Below are positions 18,646-34,288 of a stretch of 64,000 nucleotides of DNA, piece by piece (position 1 is the first letter of the stretch; each line of letters opens with the position of its first letter). Position numbers and translations under genes: made by a program. A model generated the notes under the pieces. It was given only the letters and a program-made list of their open reading frames with translations, was not told the origin of the DNA and ran no database searches. Source of the DNA: Synergistes jonesii (GTDB lineage: Bacteria; Synergistota; Synergistia; Synergistales; Synergistaceae); the NCBI RefSeq assembly GCF_000712295.1, contig NZ_JMKI01000031.1:62001-126000 (forward strand), read 5' to 3'.

Positions 18646-20328
18646 TTATCTTATTTTCATCACGGCGCCCTCCGCCGCCGAGGAGGCGAGCTTCGCGTAG
18701 ATCTCAAGCCAGCCGTGCGGAACGTCACGCGCGGGCGCGCGGCGCCCCCTGAGCCTTTCGGCGGTCTCCGCCGCGCTCAGCGCCGCCGATATTTCCTTCT
18801 TATCGATATCTATCGTGATCACGTCCCCGTCGCGCAGCGCGGCAAGCGGGCCGCCTTCCGCCGCCTCGGGAGATATGTGCCCCACGTAGCAGCCGCCGTT
18901 CGTACCGGAGAAGCGCCCGTCCGTTATCAGGGCGACCTTTTTCGCGAGCCCCATGCCGTAGAGGAATTTCATGGCGTGGAACATCTCGCGCATCCCCGGG
19001 CCGCCCTTAGGCCCCTCGTAACGCACGACGACGACGCAGCCCGGCTCGACCTCTCCGGCGAGTATCGCGTGGTTGGCCGCTTCCTCGCCGTCGAAGACGC
19101 GCGCCGGCCCCGTGAAGCGGAACATCGACGGGTCCATCGCGGCCGGCTTAGCGACGGCTCCCTCCGGAGCCAAGTTGCCGTGCAGTATGCACAGCCCCTT
19201 CTCTCTGCTGAACGGCTCCTTCGCGCTTTTTATCACGCGCCTGTCTACGCCGTAAGGGTTTTTGAATTTTTCAAGGTTTTTCGCAAGCGGCTCGCCGCTT
19301 ACGGTGAGGGTGCCGGCGTTCAGGAATTTTATTATCTCCTTCATGACCTGCGGTACCCCTCCGGCGCGGTAAAACGCCTCCATGTCGTATTCGGACGCCG
19401 GGTTGACCTTGGCGACGAGCGGGATTTTTTCACTCAGCGCGTCGATCGCGGCGAAAATTTTCTGCGGATCGAGCCCGGCCGCGTAAGCTATCGCGCAGAG
19501 GTGCATCACGCAGTTAGTCGACGCCCCCGTCGCGAGCATCACAGCGGCCGCGTTTTCGAGCGCCTCCTCCGTGATTATCTTCCGCGCCGTTATCCCTTTG
19601 TTTACGAGCTCGACGATTTTACGGCCGGTACTTTCGGAAGAACGAAGCCGCTCGGCGTACACCGCCGGGATGAGCGCCGAGCCGGAGAGGGACATGCCCA
19701 TGGCTTCGGAGAGCGCGCCCATGGAGTTAGCGGTGCCGTAAAAGGAGCAGGAGCCGCAAGTCGGACACGCCGTATCTTCGAGCCTTTCGAGCTCCTCCAT
19801 CCCGCACCTTCCCGCCTCGTACATTCCGACCGCTTCCGCCAGCGACGTGGAGTCGCTTTTGCGTCCGTCGAACTCCGCGCCGCCGAGCATAGGGCCGCTT
19901 ACGGCCATTATCGCCGGAATGTCGAGACGCGCCGCCGCCATAAGCATGCCGGGCACTATCTTGTCGCAGGCTCCGAGCATCACGAGGCCGTCCAAGTTGT
20001 GCGCGCGCGCCATCGTCTCTATGTCGCTCGCGATGAGCTCGCGCGAAGGCAGGATATACTTCATGCCGTCGTGCCCGGAGGCGAGGCCGTCGCACGCGCC
20101 TATAACGCCGAATTCGACGGCCGTGCCTCCGGCCCTGTAAACGCCCCTCTTTACGAATTCTGAGAGCTGTCTCAGGTTGAAATGCCCAGTTACGAGTTCG
20201 CTCCACGAATTCGCGACGCCGATCATCGGTCCCTTGAGGTCCGCGTCCGAGCGCCCCATCGATTTGTACAGCGCGCGCGTCTCTTTGAAGCTTAGTTCCT
20301 CTAAGAACTCGGCGCTTTTATATTTCAT
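18646..20328 (-). CDS. ilvD: IlvD/Edd-family dehydratase, dihydroxy-acid dehydratase type
   Basis: A 560-residue Fe-S dehydratase that removes water from 2,3-dihydroxy acids. The conserved cysteines are in GACDKIVPGML and TACPTCGSCSFYGTANSM. The latter is closer to dihydroxy-acid dehydratase than to sugar-acid dehydratases. GPKGGPGMREM and DGRFSGTNGG are also present. It overlaps the GntR regulator gene by 11 bases and is therefore probably in the regulated catabolic unit rather than in branched-chain synthesis, since no ilvC or ilvB is nearby. A sugar-acid or hydroxy-acid dehydratase role is a real alternative. Confidence 0.85.
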   Translation of the reverse strand: MKYKSAEFLEELSFKETRALYKSMGRSDADLKGPMIGVANSWSELVTGHFNLRQLSEFVKRGVYRAGGTAVEFGVIGACDGLASGHDGMKYILPSRELIASDIETMARAHNLDGLVMLGACDKIVPGMLMAAARLDIPAIMAVSGPMLGGAEFDGRKSDSTSLAEAVGMYEAGRCGMEELERLEDTACPTCGSCSFYGTANSMGALSEAMGMSLSGSALIPAVYAERLRSSESTGRKIVELVNKGITARKIITEEALENAAAVMLATGASTNCVMHLCAIAYAAGLDPQKIFAAIDALSEKIPLVAKVNPASEYDMEAFYRAGGVPQVMKEIIKFLNAGTLTVSGEPLAKNLEKFKNPYGVDRRVIKSAKEPFSREKGLCILHGNLAPEGAVAKPAAMDPSMFRFTGPARVFDGEEAANHAILAGEVEPGCVVVVRYEGPKGGPGMREMFHAMKFLYGMGLAKKVALITDGRFSGTNGGCYVGHISPEAAEGGPLAALRDGDVITIDIDKKEISAALSAAETAERLRGRRAPARDVPHGWLEIYAKLASSAAEGAVMKIR

Positions 20329-21016
20329 CTTTCGCGCTCTGCGCCGATGACCCGTGATGGAGGAAATAATCCCTTATTATATATCCCTCGCTGTTCACGA
20401 TATGCTCGTAAAGGCAGCTGCGGAGTTCCTCCGGATTCCTGCGCTTCATGCACTCTATTATCGCGAGATGCTGCTTTATCGAGTTCTGTATGTCCGCCAG
20501 GGACTGCACCGAAAGGTGCTGAAAGCGCTTTATCTGTACGTGGTAATTCATGAGTATTTCGCCGATACGCTTGTTTGTCGCGTATTTCGCGACGGTGAAG
20601 TGCAGCTTCAGGTCGCTGTCCGCAATAGAAGAGGAATCCAGAGCGCCCTTTTTCTTCGCCGCCTTTGCGAAGAGCTCCCACTCCTCCGACATCTCCGCGA
20701 TCTCGCCGCCGGGGATCCTCTTCGCCGCTGTGAGCGCCGCGAAGGGTTCGAGCAGCTTTCTTATTTCGCAGATCTCGTGCACGTCCTCCATCGATATTTC
20801 CGACACGAACGCGCCCTTCGACGGCACGATCTTCACATAGCCGTCCTGTTCGAGCATGCGCAGCGCCTCGCGCACGGGCGTGCGGCTCACGCCTATCTCC
20901 TCCGCGAGAAAAGTCTCGGGCAGAGTTTCTCCCATTTTTAACTCGCCGGAATCGATTTTCTCCGCTATCCAGCGATAGGCCTTCATCCAGCTCGCCCGAT
21001 CCTTATTTGAGCGCAT
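20318..21016 (-). CDS. GntR-family transcriptional regulator, FCD (FadR-like) subfamily
   Basis: A 232-residue repressor. The N-terminal winged helix has ETFLAEEIGVSRTPVREALR and QDGYVKIVPSKGAFV (about 28-65). The C-terminal FCD domain is helical, with the metal/ligand motif DLKLHFTVAKYATN. It is divergent from the larA-like/acnX operon and cotranscribed with the ilvD-type gene. The same 10-base operator, CTGTATACAT, lies just downstream of the -10 of both divergent promoters. It most likely represses both units until a pathway acid binds. The ligand is unknown. Confidence 0.93.
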   Translation of the reverse strand: MRSNKDRASWMKAYRWIAEKIDSGELKMGETLPETFLAEEIGVSRTPVREALRMLEQDGYVKIVPSKGAFVSEISMEDVHEICEIRKLLEPFAALTAAKRIPGGEIAEMSEEWELFAKAAKKKGALDSSSIADSDLKLHFTVAKYATNKRIGEILMNYHVQIKRFQHLSVQSLADIQNSIKQHLAIIECMKRRNPEELRSCLYEHIVNSEGYIIRDYFLHHGSSAQSAKDEI

Positions 21017-21066
21017 CTCTTTACCCCCGCATTCGAAATTCCCATGCCGAAAAACGGCCGTACCGT

Positions 21067-21076
21067 ATGTATACAG
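21067..21076 (-). promoter_or_regulatory. GntR-type operator O1 (CTGTATACAT on the minus strand)
   Basis: On the minus strand CTGTATACAT follows the -10 of the regulator promoter by about two bases. It is the exact reverse complement of the site at 21499-21508. The GTATAC core is typical of many FCD-type GntR operators. Confidence 0.6.
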
Positions 21077-21078
21077 AA

Positions 21079-21106
21079 ACTATAACGCAAAATAAAAATT
21101 TGTCCA
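21079..21106 (-). promoter_or_regulatory. Promoter of the gntR-ilvD unit
   Basis: On the minus strand: TGGACA (21101-21106), a 16-base spacer and TATAGT (21079-21084), followed at once by operator O1. The start would fall inside or just after the operator, fitting autorepression. Confidence 0.5.
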
Positions 21107-21312
21107 CATATTTTCATACGCGGGCGCAAATTGTTTTTCGCGGCTCTTTTTGCCGGGCAAGCGCCGTTTTTTGCGAGATTTTCCTTTCGCCGTCTTTTCG
21201 GCGGGCATAAAACGGTGGTTTTTGCGAGATCTCAACGGCAAAATGAGAACTTAAATATATAATATACTAATTTTATCACTTTTATTTATATTATTGCAGA
21301 TTAATTTTCTAA

Positions 21313-21322
21313 CAGTATACTG
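21313..21322. promoter_or_regulatory. Central perfect palindrome CAGTATACTG (possible third operator)
   Basis: A perfect 10-base palindrome with the same GTATAC core as O1 and O3. It lies in the middle of the 529-base divergent region (21017-21545), a position suited to looping or cooperative binding. The rest of that gap holds the listed promoters and operators plus a 12-base direct repeat TTTTTGCGAGAT at 21168 and 21219. Confidence 0.45.
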
Positions 21323-21390
21323 CAACGCATACGCCGCCGTGCTGCGAGCCGACGCGCGCCGGATGAGCCGAGTCCCCGATTTATCGCTTA

Positions 21391-21419
21391 TTGACAACAA
21401 TTTGAAAAGGTATTATCAT
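21391..21419 (+). promoter_or_regulatory. Upstream promoter P1 of the larA-like/acnX operon
   Basis: TTGACA (21391-21396), a 17-base spacer and TATCAT (21414-21419), close to the sigma70 consensus. It lies about 127 bases before the first gene, upstream of operator O3, so a repressor at O3 could act as a roadblock. Confidence 0.55.
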
Positions 21420-21468
21420 TGCACACGTAAGAAATAAAGGGGTTTTGTCCGGGCGCCGGCCGAGGATT

Positions 21469-21497
21469 TTGGCAGCAGAGATATTATTTTTTATTAT
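21469..21497 (+). promoter_or_regulatory. Proximal promoter P2 of the larA-like/acnX operon
   Basis: TTGGCA (21469-21474), a 17-base spacer and TATTAT (21492-21497). Operator O3 begins one base after the -10, mirroring the arrangement at the regulator's own promoter. Confidence 0.55.
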
Positions 21498-21498
21498 A

Positions 21499-21508
21499 CT
21501 GTATACAT
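21499..21508 (+). promoter_or_regulatory. GntR-type operator O3 (CTGTATACAT)
   Basis: Identical to O1 when each is read in its own transcription direction, and immediately downstream of the -10 of P2. This symmetry in both divergent promoters is the main evidence for control by the GntR/FCD protein. Confidence 0.6.
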
Positions 21509-21545
21509 AATACATACTTAGCCTTGCCATCGCGGAGAGATATAG

Positions 21546-22802
21546 ATGCCGTTGCTATTGAAAGAAGATATGGAAAGAAAGCTCCCGAAAATGTATGAGG
21601 TCCGTCAGATGTTCGAGCGCGAGAGGCTCGAAGATGTCGGCGGAGCCGTGCTAGACGAATTAAAAAAGCCGGAGATTCGAAACGCCGTCGCGCGCGGAGA
21701 AAAAATCGCGGTCGCGGTCGGGAGCCGCGGGATAAGGAATCTTCCCGTCATCGTCGGCGCCGTCGTCGACGGGCTTAAGGCGGCGGGGGCCGAGCCGTTC
21801 ATCGTCTCCGCGATGGGCAGCCACGGTGGCGGCAGCGAAGAGGGGCAGCGCGACGTGCTTTACGGCTACGGCGTCACGCCGGAGGCGATGGGCGCGCCGG
21901 TCGTGACCTCTGTGGATTCTCTTTTGATAGGACGGACCGAAAACGGCGTCCCCATCTATTTCGACGCTGCGGCGCTCAGCGCGGACGGGATCGTTCCCGT
22001 CAACCGAGTCAAGCTCCACACGGACTTCGTCGGGCCGATACAGAGTGGCCTCTGCAAGATGCTGACCGTCGGTCTCGGGAACCAGCGGGGCTGCTCGGCT
22101 ATACACGAGGTCGCCTCCGAAGATATGTCCTTTACGATCGAAAGCGCGGCTCGCGCGATAATTGAAAAGGCGCCGCTCCGCTTCGGCGTCGCGGTGCTGG
22201 AAAACGCCTACGACGAAACGGCCGCGGTCGAAGCGATAGCCGCGGAGAAAATTATTTCGCGCGAGAAGGAGCTACTGGAAATCGCGGCGAAGAATATGCC
22301 TTACATCATGCTGCCGGAGGCGGACGTAATAGTCTGCGAAAATATCGGCAAGGATATATCCGGCGCCGGCTTCGACCCGAATATCTTAGGCAGGAGCTCG
22401 GTGCTGAAGACGTTCGTCCTTCCGATCCCGCGCTATCAGCGCCTCGTGCTGCTCGGCGTGACGCCGGCGAGCCACGGCAACGGGATCGGGATAGGGCTCT
22501 TCGACGTGGTGACGAAAAAGGCGGTCTCCGCGCTCGACCTCGAGTCGATGTACGCGAACGCGATCGCGTGCCGCTGCATCGGCGACGCGAGCATCCCCTG
22601 CACCGCTGATGACGAAGAGACAGCCGTGCGGGTCGCCCTCAAATGCTGCCGCGGAATCGACAGGGATCATCCAAAGATCATAAAAATAAAAGACACCCTG
22701 CATCTGGAGACTATCGAAGTTTCCGAAGCTCTGCTCGACGAAGTTAAAGCAAATCCGAAAATGCAAATCACACAACAGAAAGGCGGACGGTCATGTTCTT
22801 AA
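21546..22802 (+). CDS. LarA-family (DUF2088) racemase/epimerase-like protein, paralog 1
   Basis: A 418-residue member of the nickel-pincer lactate racemase superfamily. Candidate cofactor and catalytic residues are His93 (SHGGG), His158 (KLHTD), Lys171 (LCKML, the usual pincer attachment) and His187 (SAIHE). The Lys-to-His spacing of 16 equals that of L. plantarum LarA, though the first pair is spaced 13 rather than 10. It begins the GntR-controlled operon and overlaps the aconitase X large-subunit gene by 10 bases. It probably epimerises a 2-hydroxy acid or similar substrate that AcnX then dehydrates. The substrate is unknown. Confidence 0.8.
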   Translation: MPLLLKEDMERKLPKMYEVRQMFERERLEDVGGAVLDELKKPEIRNAVARGEKIAVAVGSRGIRNLPVIVGAVVDGLKAAGAEPFIVSAMGSHGGGSEEGQRDVLYGYGVTPEAMGAPVVTSVDSLLIGRTENGVPIYFDAAALSADGIVPVNRVKLHTDFVGPIQSGLCKMLTVGLGNQRGCSAIHEVASEDMSFTIESAARAIIEKAPLRFGVAVLENAYDETAAVEAIAAEKIISREKELLEIAAKNMPYIMLPEADVIVCENIGKDISGAGFDPNILGRSSVLKTFVLPIPRYQRLVLLGVTPASHGNGIGIGLFDVVTKKAVSALDLESMYANAIACRCIGDASIPCTADDEETAVRVALKCCRGIDRDHPKIIKIKDTLHLETIEVSEALLDEVKANPKMQITQQKGGRSCS

Positions 22803-24010
22803 CAGATGAAGAAAAAAGTATCCTCGACGGCGAGAGGGGCGCGGGATACCAGAAGGCTATGGAGCTCATCTACGCCCTCGGCCTCACCTTCGACGCCGAA
22901 AAGCTGATTCCCATCAAGCGCGCGCACGTCGCGCTGAGCGGGCAGGAGGGGGACACATACTGGTGCGAGCTCCTCGTGAACGGCGGAGCCGTCTGCGCCG
23001 TACCCCCGACGACGAACCCTTATTGGGACACGGCGTATCTGACGAAGTTCTTCGACGTGACGCGGGAAGAGCTCGAGCTCGCGGAGCGCACCGGCGACGC
23101 CTACCGCAGGATAGGCGCGAAGCTGACCTATCACTGCGCGCCGGGGCTCGGCACAAACGTGCCCTTCTTCGGCGAGCACGTCGCCTTCTCGGAATCGAGC
23201 GCCACCCCCTACGTGAACGGTGCTCTCGGCGCCCGCTCGAACAGAGAGTCCTCCGTCAGCGCGCTGGCCGCGGCCGTCATAGGTAAGACGCCGCTCTACG
23301 GCTATCACCTCGACGAATGCCGCAGGGGGGATTTCCTCATCGACGTCGACGCCGATATGCCGGAGTGCTACGATTGGGGCATCCTCGGCCACTGCGTCGG
23401 AAAGATCGCCGGCTCGCGCAACCCGGTCCTCCGCTTTAAAAACACCCCGCGCCCCGGGCAGGAGGATTTTCTCTACTTCGGAGCCGAGGCGGCGACGAGC
23501 GGGGCGGTCGCGATGTACCACATGGTGGGCGTCACGCCCGAAGCTCCGACGCTTGAAGCGGCGTTCGGAGGTAGAAAGATACCTTCCGCTGAGTGCGTCA
23601 TAACGAACAAAGAGCTGAAGGCCGAGGAAGATTCGCTGACGCCGGCAACAGGAGAGATAAACCTCGTGATGCTCGGCTGTCCGCACTATACTTACAACCA
23701 GCTCCTCGAAGTTGAAAGGCTCTTCGCAGGCAGGCGCGTGAACGGCAGCACGGCCTTCTGGATACTCGCCGAGGCCGGCGCCGTAGAGCTCGCCGAGCGC
23801 TCGCATCTGCGCCAGCGCCTCGAGCTCCTCGGCGTGCGCATGGTCGGCGACACCTGCATCGACGAGCCGTGCTGGAAATCCTTCGAAGGGAGCCTCGGCG
23901 TCACCGACTCGCCGAAGTGCGCCTACTACAGAGAGCGCCGCGGGCAGCCCTTCGCGATACGCAGGCTGTCCGTGTGCGTCGAAGCGGCGGTCAAAGGGAG
24001 GCTTGACTGA
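22793..24010 (+). CDS. Aconitase X catalytic (large) subunit, DUF521
   Basis: The 405-residue protein matches the aconitase X large subunit: TYWCELLVNGGAVCAVPPTT, LTYHCAPGLGTNVPFFGEH, FSESSATPYVNGALGARSNR and VMLGCPHYTYNQLLEVERLF. Known bacterial AcnX enzymes include cis-3-hydroxy-L-proline dehydratase, while archaeal ones dehydrate phosphomevalonate. An Fe-S cluster held by conserved cysteines is expected. The small subunit gene follows with a one-base overlap. With a LarA-like protein and a GntR regulator, the context suggests catabolism of a hydroxylated acid or hydroxyproline-like compound. Confidence 0.88.
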   Translation: MFLTDEEKSILDGERGAGYQKAMELIYALGLTFDAEKLIPIKRAHVALSGQEGDTYWCELLVNGGAVCAVPPTTNPYWDTAYLTKFFDVTREELELAERTGDAYRRIGAKLTYHCAPGLGTNVPFFGEHVAFSESSATPYVNGALGARSNRESSVSALAAAVIGKTPLYGYHLDECRRGDFLIDVDADMPECYDWGILGHCVGKIAGSRNPVLRFKNTPRPGQEDFLYFGAEAATSGAVAMYHMVGVTPEAPTLEAAFGGRKIPSAECVITNKELKAEEDSLTPATGEINLVMLGCPHYTYNQLLEVERLFAGRRVNGSTAFWILAEAGAVELAERSHLRQRLELLGVRMVGDTCIDEPCWKSFEGSLGVTDSPKCAYYRERRGQPFAIRRLSVCVEAAVKGRLD

Positions 24011-24435
24011 TGGACAACGTGAAGGTTTACAAATGCCGTTCGATAGTCCGCGGCAGGGGAGAGGGAGAGGCGGTCGTTTCCAAAGACGCGATGTGCTTCT
24101 ACCTGACGGACCCGAAAACGGGAACGGTCATCGAGAGAAATCACGCGATACAGGGGAAGAGCATAGCCGGAAAGGTCCTCGTGGTGCAGTCCGGCAAAGG
24201 CAGCTCGGTCGTCCAGGTCGACGGCTTTTACCAGCTTTGGGTGAAGAACAACCTGCCTAAAGCCATCATCCTCAAAGAGACAGAGCCGGTGATAGTTTCA
24301 TCCGCGGTCATGACGGGCTGTACGATGGTGGACCAGATGGAAGTCGATCCCTACGAGGCAATCCACGACGGAGACTACGTCGAAGTCGACGCCGACAAGG
24401 GCGAGGTTAGGGTTAAAAAGAAGAAGCGCGAGTAG
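24010..24435 (+). CDS. Aconitase X swivel (small) subunit, DUF126
   Basis: A 141-residue swivelling domain that completes the aconitase X active site. GRGEGEAVVSKDAMCFYLTD and the internal GKSIAGKVLVVQSGKGSSVV carry the conserved serine region of DUF126 proteins. It starts on the last base of the large-subunit stop (ATG inside TGATGG), showing translational coupling. It is the last GC-rich gene before base composition drops sharply at about 24436. Confidence 0.9.
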   Translation: MDNVKVYKCRSIVRGRGEGEAVVSKDAMCFYLTDPKTGTVIERNHAIQGKSIAGKVLVVQSGKGSSVVQVDGFYQLWVKNNLPKAIILKETEPVIVSSAVMTGCTMVDQMEVDPYEAIHDGDYVEVDADKGEVRVKKKKRE

Positions 24436-24499
24436 CTATTTTCTTCTGTGACAACATTGTCTTAAAACGATGATCATATAGAAAAGCGGAGGAATGAGC

Positions 24500-24979
24500 A
24501 TGGAAGAGGTCTTCAAACCAATCTGCGTGGAAGTGAACGACGTTTCTTATCACCGTATGGTAAAAACATCTGTCTCTCTATTGGACTTTATTCGAGAGGA
24601 ACTTAAGCTAAAGGGAACAAAAAAAAGCTGTGACAACGGCGAATGCGGTGCTTGTACTGTTATCATGAACGATGAACTAGTGTACTCCTGCCAGATTTTA
24701 GCGGTGCAAGCTAATGGCGCCAAAATCACCACAATCGAAGGGATCGCCACTAATGCGAAATTGCATCCGATCCAAGAGGCCTTGATAGACGAAGGTGCCG
24801 TTCAGTGCGGTTTTTGCACGCCAGGCATGGTGCTGGCCATTAAGAAACTGCTTGAAGAATATCCTAACCCTACGGACGAGCAAATTCGTTATGGGTTGGC
24901 AGGAAACGTTTGCCGTTGCACTGGCTATGTGGCAATCGAGAAGGCAGTGAAAAAGGCAGCGGCTGTTCTTAGGGGGTAA
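24500..24979 (+). CDS. Molybdenum hydroxylase [2Fe-2S] subunit (xanthine dehydrogenase family, small)
   Basis: The iron-sulfur electron-transfer subunit. Plant-type [2Fe-2S] ligands are in CDNGECGACTVIMN and YSCQ. The second helical-domain cluster is in CGFCTPGM and CRCTGY. The length of 159 aa is normal. The ATG at 24500 is preferred because GGAGG is then spaced properly; the one at 24494 abuts it. It opens a low-GC operon whose next genes encode the Mo and FAD subunits, and the 64 bases upstream show no convincing promoter. Confidence 0.93.
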   Translation: MEEVFKPICVEVNDVSYHRMVKTSVSLLDFIREELKLKGTKKSCDNGECGACTVIMNDELVYSCQILAVQANGAKITTIEGIATNAKLHPIQEALIDEGAVQCGFCTPGMVLAIKKLLEEYPNPTDEQIRYGLAGNVCRCTGYVAIEKAVKKAAAVLRG

Positions 24980-24983
24980 TGAA

Positions 24984-27272
24984 ATGATGGATATTAATAA
25001 ATTAAGAGATCAGAAGAACGCCATCCGTCGTCTGGAATCTATCTCTAAAGTAACAGGCAGCACTTCTTACCTTGATGATATGGAGATGCAGGGTATGTCT
25101 TTTGGCAGTATTATAAGAAGTCCATACCCGCATGCGAAAGTATTATCCATAGATATCGAAGCGGCAAAAAAAATCCCTGGTGTTCTGGGCATTCTTTGTC
25201 CCAAAGACGTGTCTCATGTCAAATTCAACTGCTGCGGCTTCTTACCGGCCGACTCCCTGATTAAGGACGAGGAGATCCTGACAATGCATCCGCGCCATGA
25301 AGGGGATCGTATCGCAGCAGTAGTCGCTGAATCATATGAAATCTGTAAGAAAGCCATGAATGCTATCAAAATTGAATATGAAGTGCTGCCGGCTCAGATG
25401 ACAATTGACGAAGCGATGAAGGAAGGTGCCCCGTTAGTTAATCCTGACGTTTACGATACGAACTGCTTTTATCACAAGATCGGTGAAAGAGGCAAAATTG
25501 ACGACGGGTTTGAAAAGAGCGATTACATTTTTGAAGGTACTTACCGTACCCAGACGGTTCATCCAATTCCTATGGAGCCGATCTCCTGCATTGCCCACTG
25601 GACGCGCGATGAAAAACTGCTGATATGGGCAAATTCGCAGACTCCGTATCAAGATCGTCGTATATTAGCAGAAGAATTTGGTCTGCCAGAGTGTGATATT
25701 ATCCTTCATAGAGCGACTATCGGCGGCGGTTTTGGCCAAAGGGAAGAGCTGCACAATCAGGATGTAGCCTCTGCCCTTTCGCATCTGATTTACCGTCCGG
25801 TTAAGATTGTTAACGAGAGAAATGACGAGATGATCTCCACCGCTACAAGACACGCCTCTCTCTCCAAGGTTAAGATGGGCGTTAGTAAGGATGGCAAATT
25901 GATTGCCTATCAGCATACCATGTATACTAACGCAGGGGCTTACTGTACACACACTCCTCTTGTAACAGGCGCTCCGGACAGAAAGTGCCCATACCACATG
26001 CCGTATCTACGTTTCGATGGCATTGGCGTCCTCACCAACGGCCCCGTCTCAGGTGCTTTCAGAGGTTATGGGAACCCACAGGTCAGCTTTGCCAGGGAGT
26101 CTCTTATCAACGACTTATGCCGTAAAATGGGTTGGGATTCCGTTAAATTCCGCTACGATAACGTTTGCAAGCCAGGCGAAAAGATGCACGCGAACAAAAT
26201 TCTTAGCACCTTCCCTGCTGATCAATGTTTTGAAAACGGGCTGCGCATTCGTAAAGAGATAGACGCAAATGAAGGGCTTCGCGACGACGATGAAGTAAAA
26301 GAAGCCTGGGGTATGTCGCTTATCAGTCACACAAGCGCCGTTTCCTCTCTAGAGACGCTCTGTGCCTCCAGCATCATCTGCAATCCGGACGGCACGGTCA
26401 ATCTGATGTCCGGTACCGTAGATATGGGACAAGGAATCGAAACAGCTCTTGTGCAGGTAGTTGCTGAGAAATTTGGCATTAATGTAAAAGACATAACACA
26501 TGCAGCACTGGACACCACTTCAAGCCCCTATAACTACGGTAGTTTTTCCAGCGGGCAGGCCTTCCACTCCGGCAACGCCGTAGCCGCGGCTTGTGAGGAC
26601 GTCATAAGCAGGATTAGGACAGAGCTGGCAAATTTCTATCATGTCGACGAAGAAGACGTCAATTTTAGAGACAAAAAATTCCAGATCGTATGCAGAGGGC
26701 AGAACCTCGGTTTCAAAGAAGCGATTCAGATAATCGCCAACCGATGCCGAGGCACATTTATCATGGGCAACGCCGTAGTTGGACTGCAGGATGCACCAGA
26801 ACCATTCAGCCTTTGCTGGGCCAAGGTCGCCTACTACAAGAAAGAAAAAGCAATTAAAGTTACTCATGTTATCGAGAGCGTCGACATAGGTCGCGTAATC
26901 AACCCAATGATTGTAAAGGGGCAACTCGAAGGCGCCATCCAGATGGGCGTTGGGTTTTCTCTCATTGAAGACCTTGAAATAGACAAGTTAAGCAAGAAGG
27001 TTATCACCGCCGACCTGTTGAATTACAGGAACCCGTTAATCGTCGACATGCCGAAGATTCACTTATTTGTAGCTGACAGTTACGAACCTTACAGCGCCAA
27101 CGGCTGCAAGAGCGTAGGCGAACTTGGTGTCATCCCGGTCGCAGGGGCTATTGGCGATGCTGTAAGCAACGCTTGCGGGTGGGAAATTACCGAGATACCG
27201 TTAAGTCGTCAATTCTACGTCAAAAACTCCCGTTGCGACGGCTTTTTTGAAGGAGGGATACAGAAATGCTAA
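24984..27272 (+). CDS. Molybdopterin catalytic subunit of a molybdenum hydroxylase
   Basis: The 762-residue large subunit of the xanthine dehydrogenase family. It has the substrate and Moco loops TIGGGFGQREELHNQDVA, GAFRGYGNPQVSFARESL and TVDMGQGIETALVQV. The proposed active-site glutamate lies in CKSVGELGVIPVAGAIGDAV near the C-terminus. It starts four bases after the small subunit and overlaps the FAD subunit by seven. The substrate cannot be read off. Known relatives act on purines, N-heterocyclic carboxylates, aldehydes or 4-hydroxybenzoyl-CoA. The nearby YqeB homolog hints at a selenium-containing Mo site. Confidence 0.92.
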   Translation: MMDINKLRDQKNAIRRLESISKVTGSTSYLDDMEMQGMSFGSIIRSPYPHAKVLSIDIEAAKKIPGVLGILCPKDVSHVKFNCCGFLPADSLIKDEEILTMHPRHEGDRIAAVVAESYEICKKAMNAIKIEYEVLPAQMTIDEAMKEGAPLVNPDVYDTNCFYHKIGERGKIDDGFEKSDYIFEGTYRTQTVHPIPMEPISCIAHWTRDEKLLIWANSQTPYQDRRILAEEFGLPECDIILHRATIGGGFGQREELHNQDVASALSHLIYRPVKIVNERNDEMISTATRHASLSKVKMGVSKDGKLIAYQHTMYTNAGAYCTHTPLVTGAPDRKCPYHMPYLRFDGIGVLTNGPVSGAFRGYGNPQVSFARESLINDLCRKMGWDSVKFRYDNVCKPGEKMHANKILSTFPADQCFENGLRIRKEIDANEGLRDDDEVKEAWGMSLISHTSAVSSLETLCASSIICNPDGTVNLMSGTVDMGQGIETALVQVVAEKFGINVKDITHAALDTTSSPYNYGSFSSGQAFHSGNAVAAACEDVISRIRTELANFYHVDEEDVNFRDKKFQIVCRGQNLGFKEAIQIIANRCRGTFIMGNAVVGLQDAPEPFSLCWAKVAYYKKEKAIKVTHVIESVDIGRVINPMIVKGQLEGAIQMGVGFSLIEDLEIDKLSKKVITADLLNYRNPLIVDMPKIHLFVADSYEPYSANGCKSVGELGVIPVAGAIGDAVSNACGWEITEIPLSRQFYVKNSRCDGFFEGGIQKC

Positions 27273-28234
27273 TCTTGACAAATTTTGCCTACTATCAACC
27301 TACAACGACGGCCGATGTGCTGCCGTTAATAAAAGACGGAAATATAATCATTGCCGGTGGTTCGGACCTGATTCCCCAGCTGAAATGTGCTTCGATCCCC
27401 GCGCCGGAAGGCCTTGTCGATCTATCTGGCGTGGAAGAACTTCAAAAAATAGAAGAAAAAAATGACGGTATCCATATTGGAGCGATGACGACTTTAGCTC
27501 ATGCAGCTAAAAACGAGACAATTTCAGAGAAACTCCCGGCTGTCGCTCAGGCGGCAAGAAATGTTGCCGCGCCGCAAATCAGGAACAGGGGTACCATCGG
27601 CGGCAATGTCCTTCAGTCCAGACGTTGCTTCTATTATAACCAAACCAAGGAATGGCGGCAGGGTATCCCACGCTGTTACAAAGTCGGAGGCGACCGTTGT
27701 CTCCAGATCCAGAACTCACCCATATGCCGCGCTATCTACTATTCAGATATGGCTCCGGCATTGCTGGCATATAATGCTCAGGCTGTCGTCAATATCGACG
27801 GCAAAGACCAGACGCTTAGCTGCAAGGATCTCATTGAAGCACATTGTCAGGACCATGACGAAAAGAAAATGCTCATTAAGGAGTTCCTATTCTCCAAAAA
27901 CAGTTTCAGCGGCGTTTTTTCATCATTTGTCAAATACAGCCTCAGAGGCAGTATTGATTTTCCGGTCATCAATTTTGCCTATGTATGCGGGCCTGATACT
28001 TTGCGCATTTTTGTAGGAGGCATTGCCACACAAGTGATCGAACTTGCGGATACGGAAGCTTATCTGAAGGAACATGGGAAAGGTTTCACGGAATCGGCGG
28101 CTTTGGAAATTGCACTCTCAGAAATGAACAAAAAGAATCAAGTTATACGTGAATCCGGAATCTCTGTGCAGGTAAAACGTGGGACGTTCCGTTACATTGA
28201 AACAATATTGGCGGACATCAAACGTCATATCTAA
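27266..28234 (+). CDS. FAD subunit of the molybdenum hydroxylase with an extra four-cysteine loop
   Basis: The 322-residue FAD-binding medium subunit has IIAGGSDLIPQLK and RNRGTIGGNV as flavin motifs. Unlike ordinary xanthine dehydrogenase medium subunits it has Cys121, Cys137, Cys145 and Cys154, spaced 16, 8 and 9. As I recall them, the beta subunit of Thauera 4-hydroxybenzoyl-CoA reductase binds a [4Fe-4S] cluster through cysteines 122, 138, 146 and 155, the same spacing. The enzyme may therefore handle low-potential electrons and could work reductively. It overlaps the large subunit gene and precedes dctP. Confidence 0.9.
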   Translation: MLILTNFAYYQPTTTADVLPLIKDGNIIIAGGSDLIPQLKCASIPAPEGLVDLSGVEELQKIEEKNDGIHIGAMTTLAHAAKNETISEKLPAVAQAARNVAAPQIRNRGTIGGNVLQSRRCFYYNQTKEWRQGIPRCYKVGGDRCLQIQNSPICRAIYYSDMAPALLAYNAQAVVNIDGKDQTLSCKDLIEAHCQDHDEKKMLIKEFLFSKNSFSGVFSSFVKYSLRGSIDFPVINFAYVCGPDTLRIFVGGIATQVIELADTEAYLKEHGKGFTESAALEIALSEMNKKNQVIRESGISVQVKRGTFRYIETILADIKRHI

Positions 28235-28274
28235 TATGGGATTCCGGTTTGCGATAAATAAGGGAGGTTCTATC

Positions 28275-29285
28275 ATGAAAAAACTATTCGTACTGGTCGG
28301 TTTACTGGTTTGTCTTGTGTTGGCAATAAGTGGCGTTTCCTATGCCGCCGATATGCCGAAGGTGTCCGCAACGTTCTGCAATATGCTGGCACCTGATCAC
28401 CCGCAGAGCGCCGCAGCGAAGATTCTGGCTAATGAGGTTGCCAAGGAGACGAACGGCAATTTTACGATTGGGCTCCAGTTTAACGGCGCCCTTGGTTCGG
28501 ACGCTGAAACTGTAGAGGCAACGATTATGGGAACAATGAATATGACTGGCCCGTCGGCTGCTACGCTCGCCACAGTTGATCCTAACTGGTATATCCTTGA
28601 CGTACCTTATGTATTCCTTTCCAAGGAACAGGCAAGAAGAGCTCTTGACGGCGATTTGGGCAAATATCTGTCTGACAGCCTTGAGAAGTCTCACGGTCTT
28701 ATCTGCCTCGGCATCGGCGAATCAGGAATGCGCAACCTGTCGAACAACAAGAAAGGAATCAAGGCGGTATCCGATCTGTCAGGCATGAAAATCCGTGTGC
28801 TTGAGAACAAATACCACATTGCCACATTCAAAGCTCTAGGTGCCAATCCTACGGCTATGGCTTTTGCAGAGGTCTATACGGCATTGCAGACGCACCAAAT
28901 TGACGGTCAGGATAACCCAATTACCATCACTTGTACGAATAAGTTCTACGAAGTCCAGAAATTCTACACATTGACGCAGCATATGTTCTGTGCTAACACT
29001 GTCTGCGTTAATGCGAAATGGTTCCACTCTCTTCCGGCGTCCTATCAGAAGATCCTCCGCGACGCAGTAAAGCATATGATAGCAGAGCAGAGGAAACTGG
29101 TTGATAAGTCTGAATTAGCCAATATTAAAGAGATGCAATCCCACGGTTGCGAAATCAACGAGCTGACACCTGCTCAGAAGACACAATTTGTAAACGCCAC
29201 AAAAAAAGTCAGGGATGCTTTCGTAACTGAATATGGCAAAAAGGGACAAACGATGCTTGACCTCGCCGCAAAATACAAGAAATAA
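28275..29285 (+). CDS. dctP: TRAP transporter periplasmic substrate-binding protein DctP
   Basis: A 336-residue solute receptor with a cleavable signal peptide (MKKLFVLVGLLVCLVLAISG, cleavage after SYAA near residue 25). It has the DctP-family core, including GMKIRVLENKYHIATFKALG, whose Arg normally binds the substrate carboxylate, and AFAEVYTALQTHQIDGQDNP. It therefore probably captures an organic acid. The start ATG 28275 has AGGGAGG upstream. A stable hairpin follows, then dctQ and dctM. The substrate is likely that of the neighbouring molybdenum hydroxylase or LarA-like enzyme. Confidence 0.93.
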   Translation: MKKLFVLVGLLVCLVLAISGVSYAADMPKVSATFCNMLAPDHPQSAAAKILANEVAKETNGNFTIGLQFNGALGSDAETVEATIMGTMNMTGPSAATLATVDPNWYILDVPYVFLSKEQARRALDGDLGKYLSDSLEKSHGLICLGIGESGMRNLSNNKKGIKAVSDLSGMKIRVLENKYHIATFKALGANPTAMAFAEVYTALQTHQIDGQDNPITITCTNKFYEVQKFYTLTQHMFCANTVCVNAKWFHSLPASYQKILRDAVKHMIAEQRKLVDKSELANIKEMQSHGCEINELTPAQKTQFVNATKKVRDAFVTEYGKKGQTMLDLAAKYKK

Positions 29286-29311
29286 CTAAGGATTATTAGT
29301 TTGTATTACGG

Positions 29312-29345
29312 TGTTGAGGAAGATTTTCTCATATCTTCCTCAACA
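29312..29345 (+). repeat. Intercistronic hairpin between dctP and dctQ
   Basis: TGTTGAGGAAGAT (29312-29324) pairs perfectly with ATCTTCCTCAACA (29333-29345). No T-run follows, so it is more likely to stabilise the upstream dctP mRNA or attenuate readthrough than to terminate fully. It fits the higher demand for the binding protein over the membrane subunits. Confidence 0.65.
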
Positions 29346-29456
29346 CTGATGAAATTAGGTTCATTATGATGAAGGTAGGCATTTTTTGCGTTGATGCGTT
29401 GAGACGAATATGTATTTTTTATAGTTATGCGATCTATACATACGAGGTGTTTGTCT

Positions 29457-30005
29457 ATGAAAAGATTACTGACCTTTCTTAACAAATACATGGAAGAGAC
29501 GATATTAGTATTTGGCATTACCGTTATGATACTGGCCATTTTCTTCCAAGTAGTTACAAGATATTTCTTCAATTATTCTCTTGCCTGGTCCGAAGAACTA
29601 GCTAGATATATATTTATTTGGCAGGTCTGGCTCGCCGTACCCTATGCTGTAATCAAAGGACGCCACATTCGTCTTGATCTGCTTCCTGATATCGTAGGAT
29701 CTACAGGCAAGTTCGTCCTTCATATGATATTCTTTGCGGTTAGCGTAGGCTTTTTCGCGTTTCTGTCGTGGCAGTCGATATCCGTAGTTAAGGGGGTAAT
29801 GGCAATGAACCAGTTGACGCCTGTAATCCACATACCAAAATGGATCTGTTATTTATCCGTTCCTGTGGGAAGTCTCCTTGCCGTGCTTCGTTTCATTCAG
29901 TACGGAGCATTGCGCGTAATGCGCTTTATAAAGGATCCTAATGACTCAGCCTTATTTGTATTAGACGCAGAGGATAAAGAACTGATTGAGGAAGGAAGTT
30001 GTTAA
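29457..30005 (+). CDS. dctQ: TRAP transporter small membrane subunit DctQ
   Basis: A 182-residue inner-membrane protein with four transmembrane helices. It has the DctQ signature YSLAWSEELARYIFIWQVWL after the first helix and KGRHIRLDLLPD in the loop after the second. The ATG at 29457 follows ACGAGGTG; the frame extends 30 bases upstream without a better start. It sits four bases before dctM. Confidence 0.92.
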   Translation: MKRLLTFLNKYMEETILVFGITVMILAIFFQVVTRYFFNYSLAWSEELARYIFIWQVWLAVPYAVIKGRHIRLDLLPDIVGSTGKFVLHMIFFAVSVGFFAFLSWQSISVVKGVMAMNQLTPVIHIPKWICYLSVPVGSLLAVLRFIQYGALRVMRFIKDPNDSALFVLDAEDKELIEEGSC

Positions 30006-30008
30006 TAA

Positions 30009-31289
30009 ATGGACTTTTTGATTCTGTTTGGCTGTCTCTTTGGCCTTTTGGTTCTAGGTGTTCCTATCGGCGTTTGCCTCGGATGTGGCACACTTGCCGT
30101 TATGTTGCTAACAACTGATATGTCCGCTATGCTGTTGGCGCAAGCGTGTTTTACAGGTCTGGATTCCTTCACCCTGCTTGCAATCCCGTTCTTCGTCGTT
30201 GCCGGAGACTTCATGATGTATGGAGGAATTTCCCGTCGTTTGCTGAACCTTTTCAATGCTCTCATTGGACATGTTACCGGTGGACTTGCCGACGTTACTA
30301 CTGTCGCCTGCATGTTTTTTGCCGCCATTTCTGGTTCAGGGCCCGCGACCGTGTCGGCCATAGGTACCTTTATGATTCCTGAAATGGAAAACAAGAAATA
30401 CGACCCTGCTTTTGCTGCGGCTTTGACCGCGTGTGCCGGAGCAATTGGAGTAATTATTCCTCCAAGCATACCTTTCATCATTTACGCCGTTGCTGTCGGC
30501 AGTTCTGTCAGTGATTTGTTCTTGGCAGGCGCTATTCCCGGAATATTAATTGGTGTTCTGCTAATGGTAGTCAGTTATCTTATGGCGAAAAAAAATGGTT
30601 GGCATGGCAATGATAAAAGGGGCACCCGTCAAGAAGTATGGAAGGCCTTCAAGGATTCTATCCTGGCAATCCTTTCTCCTATTATCATCCTTGGTAGCAT
30701 CTACGCAGGTGTTTGCTCACCTACTGAGGCCGCCGTAACTGGTGTTGTGTATTCCTTCATCATAGGAGCCTTCGTATATCGTGAACTCAAATGGAAGCAC
30801 ATAGTCAAATCGATGATCGACGCAGCGCTTATCGACGGTTCCACTATTTTTATGGTCGGTATTACAACATGCCTTGGCAGGGTGCTCACGCTTAAGGCGA
30901 TACCCATCCGCCTCTGCGATTGGCTAGCGACCTTCACCAACAGTAACGCCGTTATCCTCTTGATGGTCGCAGCACTGTTGCTGATAGTCGGATGTTTTAT
31001 GGATAACATCTCAGCTACTATCATCCTAGCGCCTATCCTGTTGCCGACAGCTGTTAAGTGCGGGCTAACTCCTGTGCAGTTCGGCGTCGTTATGACAATG
31101 CTACTGGCAATCGGATTCATCACTCCACCTTATGGAATCAACCTCTTTGTGGCGAGTCAATTAAGCGGGGTGCCATTACTGAGAATAGCGAAACGGGCAG
31201 TGCCGTTGATGTTGGCTATGCTGGTGGCGTCTCTGTTCACTATATTCATTCCACAGATATCCATGGCTCTGGTATATCTAGCACATTAG
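30009..31289 (+). CDS. dctM: TRAP transporter large membrane subunit DctM
   Basis: The 426-residue multi-helix subunit of the ion-transporter superfamily, driving uptake with a sodium or proton gradient. It has the duplicated DctM features: PFFVVAGDFMMYGGISRRLL, AISGSGPATVSAIGTFMIPE, GVIIPPSIPFIIYAV and GFITPPYGINLFVASQLSGV. It completes a full TRAP system with dctP and dctQ, located between the molybdenum hydroxylase and the second LarA-family gene. Confidence 0.94.
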   Translation: MDFLILFGCLFGLLVLGVPIGVCLGCGTLAVMLLTTDMSAMLLAQACFTGLDSFTLLAIPFFVVAGDFMMYGGISRRLLNLFNALIGHVTGGLADVTTVACMFFAAISGSGPATVSAIGTFMIPEMENKKYDPAFAAALTACAGAIGVIIPPSIPFIIYAVAVGSSVSDLFLAGAIPGILIGVLLMVVSYLMAKKNGWHGNDKRGTRQEVWKAFKDSILAILSPIIILGSIYAGVCSPTEAAVTGVVYSFIIGAFVYRELKWKHIVKSMIDAALIDGSTIFMVGITTCLGRVLTLKAIPIRLCDWLATFTNSNAVILLMVAALLLIVGCFMDNISATIILAPILLPTAVKCGLTPVQFGVVMTMLLAIGFITPPYGINLFVASQLSGVPLLRIAKRAVPLMLAMLVASLFTIFIPQISMALVYLAH

Positions 31290-31311
31290 TGTTAGGGGAT
31301 TCATATGGTCT

Positions 31312-32595
31312 ATGAGAGAGTATGGCATTCCTTATTCAGATAAAATAATTCCAATTTCTTTGCCAGAAAATCAGGTAGACTTTGTAGGTGTCTTGCCAAC
31401 TGTCATGGAGATGCGTGGTTGGAATAAAGTACTCTCTCATATGCTGGATGAACCTACTGCTGGACCTGCTCTAAGTACGATGCTTCATCGTGGGAAACAT
31501 ATCGTCATCCTGGTTGAGGATAATACTAGGCATACTCCAGTGAAGGAGATCCTTCCGATTTTATGTCAATACCTTATTGCTAACGGATGTTCTTTGGAGC
31601 AAATAGAGATTCTTGTTGCTCCAGGTACTCACCGTATCCTCACAAATGAAGAACTATGGGATAAATTGGGAGCTTATGTACTGACCCAATTAAAAGTCAG
31701 CCAACATAACTACCTGGATGCAAATCAACTCAAACAGCTTGATGATGTTTTTATCGGTGACATGCGAGTTCCTATATTAGTCAACAAGATCGCCGTTGAA
31801 GCTGATTTACTTATCGGTCTAGGCAACATAATTCCCCATCCCAACGCAGGATATTCCGGCGGAGCTAAAATACTTGTCCCGGGCTGCTGCGGCGGGGAAA
31901 CTGTGTCAGCAATGCATACTGCGGCGGCATTGATGGGGTTTCTTCCTCTAGGTATGGAGAAAAATGCTTGCAGAGAGGGTCTGGAGAAAGTTGCAGACAA
32001 AGTTGGGTTGGATTTTATTATTAACGTGGTACTGAATGAAAAGAATCAGGTAGCCGACATAGTCACAGGACATTTTATTGCAGCTCATCGGGTCGGGGCC
32101 AAGAAAGCCCGCTACATTTTCGGCGTCCCCGTCAAAGAACCCGTTGATATCGTCATCAGCTGTTCCTATCCGTATGACATAGATTATTGGCAGTGTGAGA
32201 AAGCCGTCATTTCAGGATCTTTTGCCATAAAAAAGGGCGGCATCATGATTCTTGTGGCTCCGTGCTTGGAAGGCGTTGCACATAACCATGATGAGCTGTT
32301 GCAATGGATGAATTTCGATAGTAATGATTTGGAATGCCGTATCCGAAGAATCTGGGAAAATCATAGTTCAGGCGACCTAGTTGCAGCGGGCATTGCAATG
32401 GGGGCTGTACTGGCAAGAGAAAGAGCCAGCACCTATATGTACAGTAGTGGGCTTTCGATTACAGAAATCACCGGACTCGGCTATAAATGTTTTAATAATT
32501 TACAAGACGCCGTAGATACTGCCTTAAATATGATTCCCAATGGAAGAATTGGTATTTTGCCGCGCGGCGGAGATTGTTTGCCTTTTACTTTATAA
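31312..32595 (+). CDS. LarA-family nickel-pincer racemase/epimerase-like protein, paralog 2
   Basis: A 427-residue LarA homolog. All pincer-enzyme residues appear: EDNTRHTP at 69-76, His107 in APGTHR, His176 in IPHPNAGYSGGAK, Lys186 and His202 in SAMHTAA. The spacings His176-Lys186-His202 (10 and 16) equal those of L. plantarum LarA (174-184-200). It should bind the nickel-pincer nucleotide through Lys186 and racemise or epimerise a 2-hydroxy acid. It follows dctM closely, so the transported compound may be its substrate. larB, larE and a full larC are not in the window. Confidence 0.88.
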   Translation: MREYGIPYSDKIIPISLPENQVDFVGVLPTVMEMRGWNKVLSHMLDEPTAGPALSTMLHRGKHIVILVEDNTRHTPVKEILPILCQYLIANGCSLEQIEILVAPGTHRILTNEELWDKLGAYVLTQLKVSQHNYLDANQLKQLDDVFIGDMRVPILVNKIAVEADLLIGLGNIIPHPNAGYSGGAKILVPGCCGGETVSAMHTAAALMGFLPLGMEKNACREGLEKVADKVGLDFIINVVLNEKNQVADIVTGHFIAAHRVGAKKARYIFGVPVKEPVDIVISCSYPYDIDYWQCEKAVISGSFAIKKGGIMILVAPCLEGVAHNHDELLQWMNFDSNDLECRIRRIWENHSSGDLVAAGIAMGAVLARERASTYMYSSGLSITEITGLGYKCFNNLQDAVDTALNMIPNGRIGILPRGGDCLPFTL

Positions 32596-32629
32596 CTGTT
32601 TACATACAGATCGCAGGTGTATTTTTTAC

Positions 32630-33418
32630 GTGAAGAGAAATAATCTTGTAATCGTTCGTGGAGGAGGGGACCTGGCTACAGGCGTAATTTATCGCCTGTG
32701 GAAGGCAGGATTTGAGGTACTTTCCCTTGAAACAGCAAACCCTCTCGTAGTGCGCAGGACCGTATCCGTTGCTGAAGCTGTCTTTGAAGGACAATACGAA
32801 ATAGAAGATATGTGTGCTATGAAAATAAATTCCATAGATGAATGGAAAGACCGACACAAAGTAGCGGTATTGGTAGACCCTCACGGCGACTCTATAAAGG
32901 AACAATCTCCTATAATCGTTGTAGACGCAACTATGATGAAGCATTATACCGGCACGTACAAGGATATGGCTCCTTTAGTGCTTGCGCTTGGCCCCGGTTT
33001 CTCTGCGCCCGATCAAGTACATGGAGTAATAGAGACCAAAAGAGGACATTATTTAGGCAGATTGATAACTAACGGGTCAGCAATACCAAATACAGGAATC
33101 CCGGGCATGGAAATGGGGTACACAATGGAGAGGCTATTGCGGGCCCCGGCTAACGGCTACGTGAAACATATTCATGAGATTGGAGATCACGTGGAGCAGG
33201 AAGAACTTGTTGCAACCGTTGGCAAAGCTGAAGTGCGCGCTCAGATAAGTGGTATGCTGCGTGGCCTGATACATCCTAGCGTTAAGGTCCAGACGGGCTG
33301 CAAGATTGGTGACGTTGACCCGCGAAATATCAGAGACCATTGTTTTACTATTACAGACAAAGCATTAGCTATAGCGGGCGGTGTTCTCGAAGCAATTATG
33401 AGTTTTGGGTGCCGCTAA
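32630..33418 (+). CDS. yqeB: YqeB/EF2563-family selenium-dependent molybdenum hydroxylase accessory protein
   Basis: This 262-residue protein matches the EF2563/YqeB family: VIVRGGGDLATGVIYRLWKA at the start, LALGPGFSAPDQVHGVIETK and RLLRAPANGYVKHIHEIGD. It has been linked comparatively to selenium-dependent molybdenum hydroxylases that carry a labile selenium cofactor. The GTG at 32630 is favoured because AGGTG lies about ten bases upstream; the longer frame from 32540 would overlap the LarA-like gene by 56 bases. It ends the low-GC block and most likely matures the hydroxylase encoded at 24.5-28.2 kb. Confidence 0.85.
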   Translation: MKRNNLVIVRGGGDLATGVIYRLWKAGFEVLSLETANPLVVRRTVSVAEAVFEGQYEIEDMCAMKINSIDEWKDRHKVAVLVDPHGDSIKEQSPIIVVDATMMKHYTGTYKDMAPLVLALGPGFSAPDQVHGVIETKRGHYLGRLITNGSAIPNTGIPGMEMGYTMERLLRAPANGYVKHIHEIGDHVEQEELVATVGKAEVRAQISGMLRGLIHPSVKVQTGCKIGDVDPRNIRDHCFTITDKALAIAGGVLEAIMSFGCR

Positions 33419-33542: not shown

Positions 33543-33560
33543 ACGGCGTCAGAACGCCGT
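33543..33560 (-). terminator. Hairpin at the end of the PII-like gene
   Basis: ACGGCGT (33543-33549) pairs with ACGCCGT (33554-33560), loop CAGA, touching the stop of the PII-like gene. No clear T-run follows. The 141-base gap between yqeB and this gene holds no clear gene. Confidence 0.4.
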
Positions 33561-34288
33561 CAGCCCTCTCGCGCGTCCGACTCGCCGCCTTTGCCGACGG
33601 CGTCCGGCTCGCTCTCTTCCAGCAGACGCAGACCAGCCATGCCGGAGACGGGCAGCGAAAAGGCTATAGCGTTGGCCTTCGTGCCTATCCCCGCCTTGCG
33701 CATAATAGACCCCATGATCGCGTTTTTCTGGGAAGTTTTTGTGACGATGAAAATGATCTCCTTCTCAGATGCGAGTGAAACGCCGAGAAACTTCTCGGCG
33801 TTCTTCATGCCGGTGCCTCGCGCATGGAGAACGGTGCCGCCGGCGGCCCCGGATTCCCGCGCGGCATTCATTACGGCCTCGTTATATCCCGGGTCGCTGA
33901 TGACGACAAGCAGCTCGTGCGCAGTTCCCTTCATCGTATGCTCTTCCCCCTTTTCAAATCCCTGCCCTTCGGTGAGAAAGGCCAGCTCGCGCTTCCCGCC
34001 GATGCTGCTCATCGGGATGATGAAAGCGATTCCCGTTCCCGGCACGTCTATGTGGACCTTATATTCCAGCCCTTTCTTGGCCGCCCTCCAGACCTCGCCC
34101 GTAACGACCGAGAAACACACGGCTTTTTCAGGCCGGTCGAGCCCGAAATAATTCAGCATCTCGCCTGTAGCCGTCCCGCGCCCGAGGGCTATCATATTGA
34201 TATTGATGGAGACGTCACGGTACAGGGATATGATCTCCGGCAGCCTCGCCCTGTTCGCGATCGTCACCATGAAATACAGATCACTCAT
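33560..34288 (-). CDS. PII-like (GlnB-superfamily) protein linked to a DUF1538 membrane protein
   Basis: The 242 residues appear to contain two PII-like ferredoxin-fold halves. The first is MSDLYFMVTIANRARLPEII followed by GRGTATGEMLNYFGL. The second is HELLVVISDPGYNEAVMNAA followed by GTVLHARGTGMKNAEKF. The G-(R/A)-G-T motif in each half resembles the T-loop region of nucleotide-binding PII proteins. It lies 14 bases after the DUF1538 gene on the same strand, a pairing also seen elsewhere. It probably senses an adenine nucleotide or other ligand and gates the membrane protein. Both roles are inferred. Confidence 0.8.
   Translation of the reverse strand: MSDLYFMVTIANRARLPEIISLYRDVSININMIALGRGTATGEMLNYFGLDRPEKAVCFSVVTGEVWRAAKKGLEYKVHIDVPGTGIAFIIPMSSIGGKRELAFLTEGQGFEKGEEHTMKGTAHELLVVISDPGYNEAVMNAARESGAAGGTVLHARGTGMKNAEKFLGVSLASEKEIIFIVTKTSQKNAIMGSIMRKAGIGTKANAIAFSLPVSGMAGLRLLEESEPDAVGKGGESDAREG

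Follow-up and report, generated by a model that had tools for sequence, protein, structure and literature searches.

In the gut metabolism of diet compounds, reductive enzymes of the xanthine oxidase family have recently emerged as an expanding theme, with 4-hydroxybenzoyl-CoA reductase (4-HBCR), urolithin C dehydroxylase and an ergothioneine enzyme as examples. In ergothioneine catabolism, a gut enzyme of this family cleaves an aromatic C-S bond (PMC12771579), and a Mo-dependent thiourocanate desulfhydrase acts in the gut ergothioneine pathway (PMC13405746). Aconitase X (AcnX) is described as a cis-3-hydroxy-L-proline or mevalonate-5-phosphate dehydratase. For its bacterial subclasses IIc-IIf, no reaction has been assigned (PMC8184944). 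Here we describe an operon on a 64,000-nucleotide stretch of Synergistes jonesii (contig NZ_JMKI01000031.1; the whole stretch is called the window), in which an AcnX of type IIc-f and a nickel-pincer nucleotide (NPN) enzyme of group 22, both without an assigned reaction, share an operon with a probably reductive molybdenum (Mo) enzyme. The enzyme families have each been described before; their combination, and its conservation across two phyla, appear from our searches to be new. An earlier note on this DNA had known of no pathway that combines DctPQM, a Mo enzyme and a LarA-type racemase, and no description of the present gene set was found in the literature that we searched, which lay mostly outside subscription journals.

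Gene content and conserved residues

The earlier note had described a catabolic unit of eight same-strand genes starting at 24436. The eight genes (24494-33418; MoG, MoA, MoB, DctP, DctQ, DctM, LarA, YqeB) were confirmed in identity, and so was the catabolic look of a unit with unusual cofactors. However, they form only part of an operon of 11 genes on the + strand (21546-33418), which begins with LarA1, AcnX-L and AcnX-S. This second NPN enzyme and the AcnX pair had been overlooked, as had a divergent regulator and a [4Fe-4S] insert in the Mo enzyme. The genes, in order, are as follows.

21546..22802, + strand: LarA1, nickel-pincer cofactor-dependent isomerase group 22 (NF052515, 494 bits, cut-off 400)
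22793..24010, + strand: AcnX-L, AcnX large subunit, type II (PF04412, E 3.6e-116)
24010..24435, + strand: AcnX-S, AcnX small (swivel) subunit (PF01989)
24494..24979, + strand: MoG, Mo hydroxylase gamma subunit with two [2Fe-2S] (PF01799, PF00111)
24984..27272, + strand: MoA, Mo hydroxylase alpha subunit, xanthine oxidase family (PF02738, PF20256, PF01315)
27266..28234, + strand: MoB, beta subunit, binding flavin adenine dinucleotide (FAD), with a 4-HBCR-type [4Fe-4S] insert
28275..29285, + strand: DctP, TRAP solute-binding protein (PF03480; start moved downstream from the listed open reading frame)
29457..30005, + strand: DctQ (PF04290; start moved downstream after comparison with Cuneatibacter)
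30009..31289, + strand: DctM (PF06808, E 2e-113)
31312..32595, + strand: LarA2, LarA-family NPN enzyme (PF09861)
32630..33418, + strand: YqeB, selenium-dependent Mo cofactor maturation (TIGR03309, 340 bits, cut-off 220; GTG start proposed)

The LarA1, AcnX-L and AcnX-S genes overlap one another, and a gap of 58 bp separates AcnX-S from MoG. From this layout we infer a single transcript of all 11 genes under the divergent GntR regulator.

MoG, MoA and MoB (MoGAB) together hold all the Mo, FAD and two [2Fe-2S] domains of a three-subunit enzyme. The best PDB match of MoA was the alpha subunit of 4-HBCR, and MoB was likewise nearest to 4-HBCR among solved structures. The catalytic Glu of MoA aligned at position 713. 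In MoB, Cys121, 137, 145 and 154 aligned with all four insert cysteines of the beta subunit of the Thauera aromatica enzyme (1rm6_B), with identical spacing (C-X15-C-X7-C-X8-C). MoGAB therefore shares with 4-HBCR (1rm6) both the three-subunit xanthine-oxidase-family architecture and the four-Cys beta insert, which marks it as 4-HBCR-like. It differs in its equivalog scores, far under threshold at 412 of 995 and 172 of 405 bits and below it for all three models TIGR03193/4/5, and in its linkage to LarA, AcnX and TRAP genes. No aryl-CoA ligase was found among the operon genes or annotated neighbours. Identity as a canonical xanthine dehydrogenase or 4-HBCR was rejected, as the equivalog cut-offs were not reached.

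The catalytic His pair, cofactor Lys and Ni-ligand His of the LarA superfamily were kept in both LarA1 and LarA2. LarA1 passed the group 22 model, whereas LarA2 fell under the cut-off of every characterised subgroup; the operon also departs from described LarA systems in joining two LarA homologues with AcnX. AcnX has the split subunits of type II, and AcnX-L keeps the three Fe-S Cys ligands (C115, C296 and C355) of the archaeal type II enzyme TkAcnX. In contrast, it scored under the cut-off of the hydroxyproline-dehydratase model (203 of 700 bits). DctP keeps the carboxylate-binding Arg, Arg and Asn.

The claim that rare cofactors are needed was a fair one. LarC, for supply of the NPN cofactor, is present in the genome, as are SelD and YqeB, the pair expected with a selenium-dependent Mo hydroxylase. 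The SelD gene (L194, G000:C37:117040-117969) contains an in-frame TGA, and SelD is probably itself a selenoprotein. About a dozen Mo-hydroxylase alpha matches were seen in this 2.7-Mb genome, several with a YqeB of their own (four YqeB copies).

Mosaic origin of the operon

The GC content of the eight-gene block was 0.461, compared with 0.591 in the rest of the window. For codon usage, all eight genes ranked in the bottom 0-8% against a background of 133 genes from this genome, and LarA1, AcnX-L and AcnX-S were typical of that background. The GC counts quoted earlier were exact (19 of 60 in 31321-31380 and 41 of 60 in 23041-23100), and the contrast itself stands. However, it does not mark the edge of the unit: the line 23041-23100 falls inside AcnX, and the GC step sits within the operon.

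AcnX-L was up to 90% identical to other Synergistota proteins and grouped among them in the tree (support 100/100). The usual module in Synergistota relatives consists of a regulator, a LarA-type gene, AcnX-L, AcnX-S and DctP-DctQ-DctM; in two relatives (L081 and L084) a LarA1 homologue lies near AcnX and replaces the LarA2-like gene. In nine further Synergistota loci (L212, L215-L219, L221, L222 and L224), LarA1 (54-59%) adjoins a different AcnX subtype, which is 62-63% identical to the AcnX of Cuneatibacter. This LarA1-AcnX couple is a tight pair in all nine.

The close relatives lacked the Mo enzyme: across 187 other Synergistota, matches to MoA did not exceed 41%. Scanning of genome contigs with an alignment query recovered one close relative of MoA, in Cuneatibacter sp. 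NSJ-177 (Lachnospiraceae, 66%), followed by matches of 46% and below; a single MoA sequence query had given no match. Among 397 genomes of its family, only Cuneatibacter carried a close MoA. Its gene order matched the window (AcnXL-AcnXS-MoG-MoA-MoB-DctP-DctQ-DctM-LarA2), with identities of 46% for AcnXL and 51% for AcnXS, and of 57-78% for the seven genes that follow (MoG 75%, MoA 66%, MoB 59%, DctP 70%, DctQ 57%, DctM 78% and LarA2 65%). After LarA2, the Cuneatibacter cluster continues with a second Mo hydroxylase, LarA1 (58%) and, at its far end, a GntR gene. DctP, DctM, LarA2 and MoA each paired with Cuneatibacter in the trees (100/100). YqeB, despite its atypical composition, had its closest homologues in Synergistota (66%).

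By these identities and trees, the operon is a mosaic of a resident Synergistota LarA-AcnX-TRAP module and a seven-gene Cuneatibacter-type cassette from MoG to LarA2, since AcnX-L and YqeB are Synergistota-type while the stretch between MoG and LarA2 is Cuneatibacter-type. A single imported eight-gene island was ruled out on the same grounds. Atypical composition together with phylogenetic conflict indicates that horizontal acquisition holds for MoG to LarA2, not for AcnX. The earlier proposal of transfer survives for most of the low-GC part, as neither of the refuting conditions named in the note holds (codon usage differs from the flanks, and close relatives lack the Mo enzyme), and fails for one block; the recurrence of gene order that it asked for was seen from MoG to LarA2, with YqeB instead of Synergistota type. 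We call the cassette Cuneatibacter-type by likeness only and assign neither donor nor direction of transfer; the GC content of the Cuneatibacter copies (0.49-0.57) is above that of the window copies. Island hallmarks were absent: no tRNA was found in the window and no integrase or transposase among the annotated flanking genes (the note, too, had seen no integrase or tRNA at the borders), and a repeat search gave no direct-repeat borders. An empty-site search via the downstream DUF1538 gene gave no clean empty site, as the two genomes of the same genus lacked that gene.

A possible pathway and its alternatives

On the gene content, the order kept in two phyla, the mosaic structure, the catalytic residues and the beta-subunit insert, we infer an organic-acid pathway in which the LarA-AcnX-TRAP genes and the Mo cassette would end in reductive attack on a ring. 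We hold this reading tentatively, as quite plausible. DctPQM would import a small carboxylic acid, presumably a 2-hydroxy acid, and LarA1 and LarA2 would invert its C2 hydroxyl by nickel-pincer hydride transfer. AcnX, with the Fe-S cluster as Lewis acid, could then eliminate water to give a conjugated acrylate, probably of imidazole or thioimidazole type, the same kind of intermediate as would arise from ergothionase or histidine ammonia-lyase (HAL) in related clusters; flow through AcnX could also run in reverse (hydration). Low-potential electrons would reach the Mo enzyme through the [4Fe-4S], FAD and [2Fe-2S] centres. By analogy with 4-HBCR, MoGAB probably works in the reductive direction, and it may remove a ring substituent as 4-HBCR does (OH) or as the gut thiourocanate desulfhydrase does (S). 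YqeB may, optionally, place a labile selenium on the Mo centre.

The nature of the ring is suggested by gene association. MoA belongs to a clade of 24 rows (support 100/100), and a lyase of the HAL/ergothionase family was present in 17 of 27 loci of this clade, whereas none of the 50 loci of other Mo hydroxylases recovered by that scan had one (Fisher 1.7e-10; since related loci are not independent, the association is at most this strong). Two lyases tested by best PDB match, one from this genome (L095) and one from Blautia parvula (L118), were ergothionases, with scores against ergothionase and histidine ammonia-lyase of 480 vs 244 and 545 vs 223 bits. Several lyases neighbouring the clade lacked the 4-methylideneimidazole-5-one (MIO) triad, and another subset, with an ACG or ASG version, may be true ammonia-lyases. 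HAL-family lyases with ACG for ASG adjoin Mo enzymes in L125, L129, L131, L132, L133, L135 and L139. The L095 locus (G000:C2:138001-158000) is a separate ergothioneine-type cluster of the same genome, with an ergothionase-like lyase, a BCCT betaine-type transporter, two Mo hydroxylases and a formimidoylglutamase-like gene; its lyase, transporter and both Mo enzymes are kept in genomes G016 and G022.

AcnX modules of three subtypes adjoin urocanate-handling genes in several Synergistota and in this genome. HutU and HutI lie beside AcnX in L089, L090 and L105, with FtcD, FchA and FTHFS also in L089; the AcnX of L213 has HutU, HutI and FtcD as neighbours, and those of L225 and L226 lie close to ergothionase. 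A second AcnX-TRAP cluster of this genome (L211, G000:C8:8001-28000) lies beside a urocanase gene (76% to the L105 HutU) and a HAL-family lyase. The lyase neighbours of the Mo clade and the Hut neighbours of AcnX independently point to imidazole acrylates, and as an association this suggests that the pathway handles such compounds. A bolder version of the proposal, which we consider doubtful, is a new anaerobic pathway in which the Ni-pincer racemase and AcnX replace the ammonia- or trimethylamine-lyase step, so that a (thio)imidazole acrylate formed from a 2-hydroxy acid reaches a reductive, possibly seleno-, Mo enzyme. If this is true, the uncharacterised bacterial AcnX subclasses would share one function with NPN group 22.

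Compared with the gut ergothioneine pathway, MoA falls in one supported clade with Mo enzymes that neighbour ergothionase-type lyases, a paralogue from this genome among them, but on a separate deep branch. Its identity to them is about 41-43%, and LarA, AcnX and TRAP take the place of ergothionase and the betaine transporter, neither of which was found in the window operon or the Cuneatibacter cluster.

Several observations weigh against the imidazole proposal and its reductive last step. The MoA proteins of the window and of Cuneatibacter branch off deeply, apart from the subclade with most of the ergothionase-linked enzymes, so that their substrate may differ, and no ergothionase, HAL, HutU or HutI gene lies within the window operon. 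Many native AcnX loci (L076-L088) lack histidine genes and have IlvD or an aminotransferase nearby, which fits a 2,3-dihydroxy acid. The hydroxyl lost in the reactions of known AcnX enzymes is a beta-OH, whereas an aryl-lactate would have to lose its alpha-OH. A [4Fe-4S] insert, with other spacing, is also present in oxidative PaoABC-type enzymes, so the insert by itself does not fix the direction of MoGAB.

The strongest alternative draws on IlvD, the aminotransferases and known AcnX chemistry. Here TRAP would import a sugar-acid-like 2,3-dihydroxy acid, LarA would epimerise C2 and AcnX (with IlvD) would dehydrate it to a 2-oxo acid, while the Mo enzyme would act upstream as an oxidative aldehyde-to-acid enzyme. 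The IlvD homologue adjoins the regulator here and in four relatives (cluster 7), and aminotransferases, a D-2-hydroxyacid dehydrogenase and a GlcD-type oxidase lie near AcnX in relatives; beta-OH loss would match the known reactions. The closest solved relatives of DctP include TRAP proteins from a pantoate-, erythronate- or keto-deoxygluconate-binding set (4p9k/4pak, which we take to be matched to ligands of these types), but binding-protein specificity is not transferable at such distance. The sugar-acid route also leaves unexplained the ergothionase-type lyases beside the Mo clade and the Hut genes beside AcnX, and we judge it rather unlikely.

A malate-type route is improbable. In it LarA2 would be a racemase of malate or a substituted malate, AcnX a malate-type dehydratase, and the Mo enzyme would act on an unrelated co-substrate. 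In its favour, malate racemases give the top hits of LarA2, Mar2 in the PDB and the LarAH6 model in NCBIfam, and aconitase-superfamily hydratases act on malate-like acids. However, LarA2 reached 272 bits against the LarAH6 equivalog cut-off of 500, and the conserved neighbourhood showed neither a malic enzyme nor any other dicarboxylate gene.

Degradation of pyridinediol (mimosine-derived dihydroxypyridine, DHP), with the reductive Mo enzyme moving or removing ring hydroxyls of 3,4-DHP, is very improbable: S. jonesii isomerises 3,4-DHP to 2,3-DHP (PMC12366334), and MoGAB resembles 4-HBCR and is missing from relatives, but the same cassette occurs in Cuneatibacter, which has no known DHP link, the genome holds about a dozen Mo hydroxylase matches, and gene context favours imidazoles.

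As AcnX of type IIc-f and NPN group 22 share an operon with the Mo enzyme, in an order kept across two phyla of anaerobes, the substrates of these two families could be tested with one purified set of proteins.

Control region and neighbouring features

The features outside the operon genes are as follows.

18646..20328, - strand: IlvD/EDD-family dehydratase (NCBIfam ilvD, 636 bits, cut-off 618)
20318..21016, - strand: GntR/FCD transcriptional regulator, divergent (Pfam GntR and FCD)
21068..21075, + strand: TGTATACA, operator-like palindrome, regulator side (8-mer search)
21391..21419, + strand: promoter-like TTGACA-17-TATCAT (11 of 12 consensus positions; predicted by consensus match only)
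21500..21507, + strand: TGTATACA, operator-like palindrome, operon side (8-mer search)
29309..29348, + strand: strong stem-loop in the dctP-dctQ gap (z -4.2 vs shuffles for 29286-29426)

The operon is probably controlled from the 529-bp gap between the regulator and LarA1 (21017-21545), with TGTATACA as putative operator. The two copies of the palindrome in the 64-kb window both lie in this gap, compared with 0.16 expected for the whole window. It occurred in 7 of the 12 intergenic regions between regulator and operon (the window and six relatives) and was not found in the Cuneatibacter cluster, which argues for a lineage-specific operator. Homologues of the GntR/FCD regulator occur in 11 other AcnX loci. 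The IlvD/EDD gene overlaps the regulator gene and is associated with, but outside, the + strand operon. An inverted repeat, judged by eye, lies at the equivalent dctP-dctQ position in Cuneatibacter.

Downstream of the operon, a P-II-like gene (33560-34288) adjoins the gene of a DUF1538 protein (34303-35829, - strand), which showed UmpA/UmpB-like similarity in one chain.

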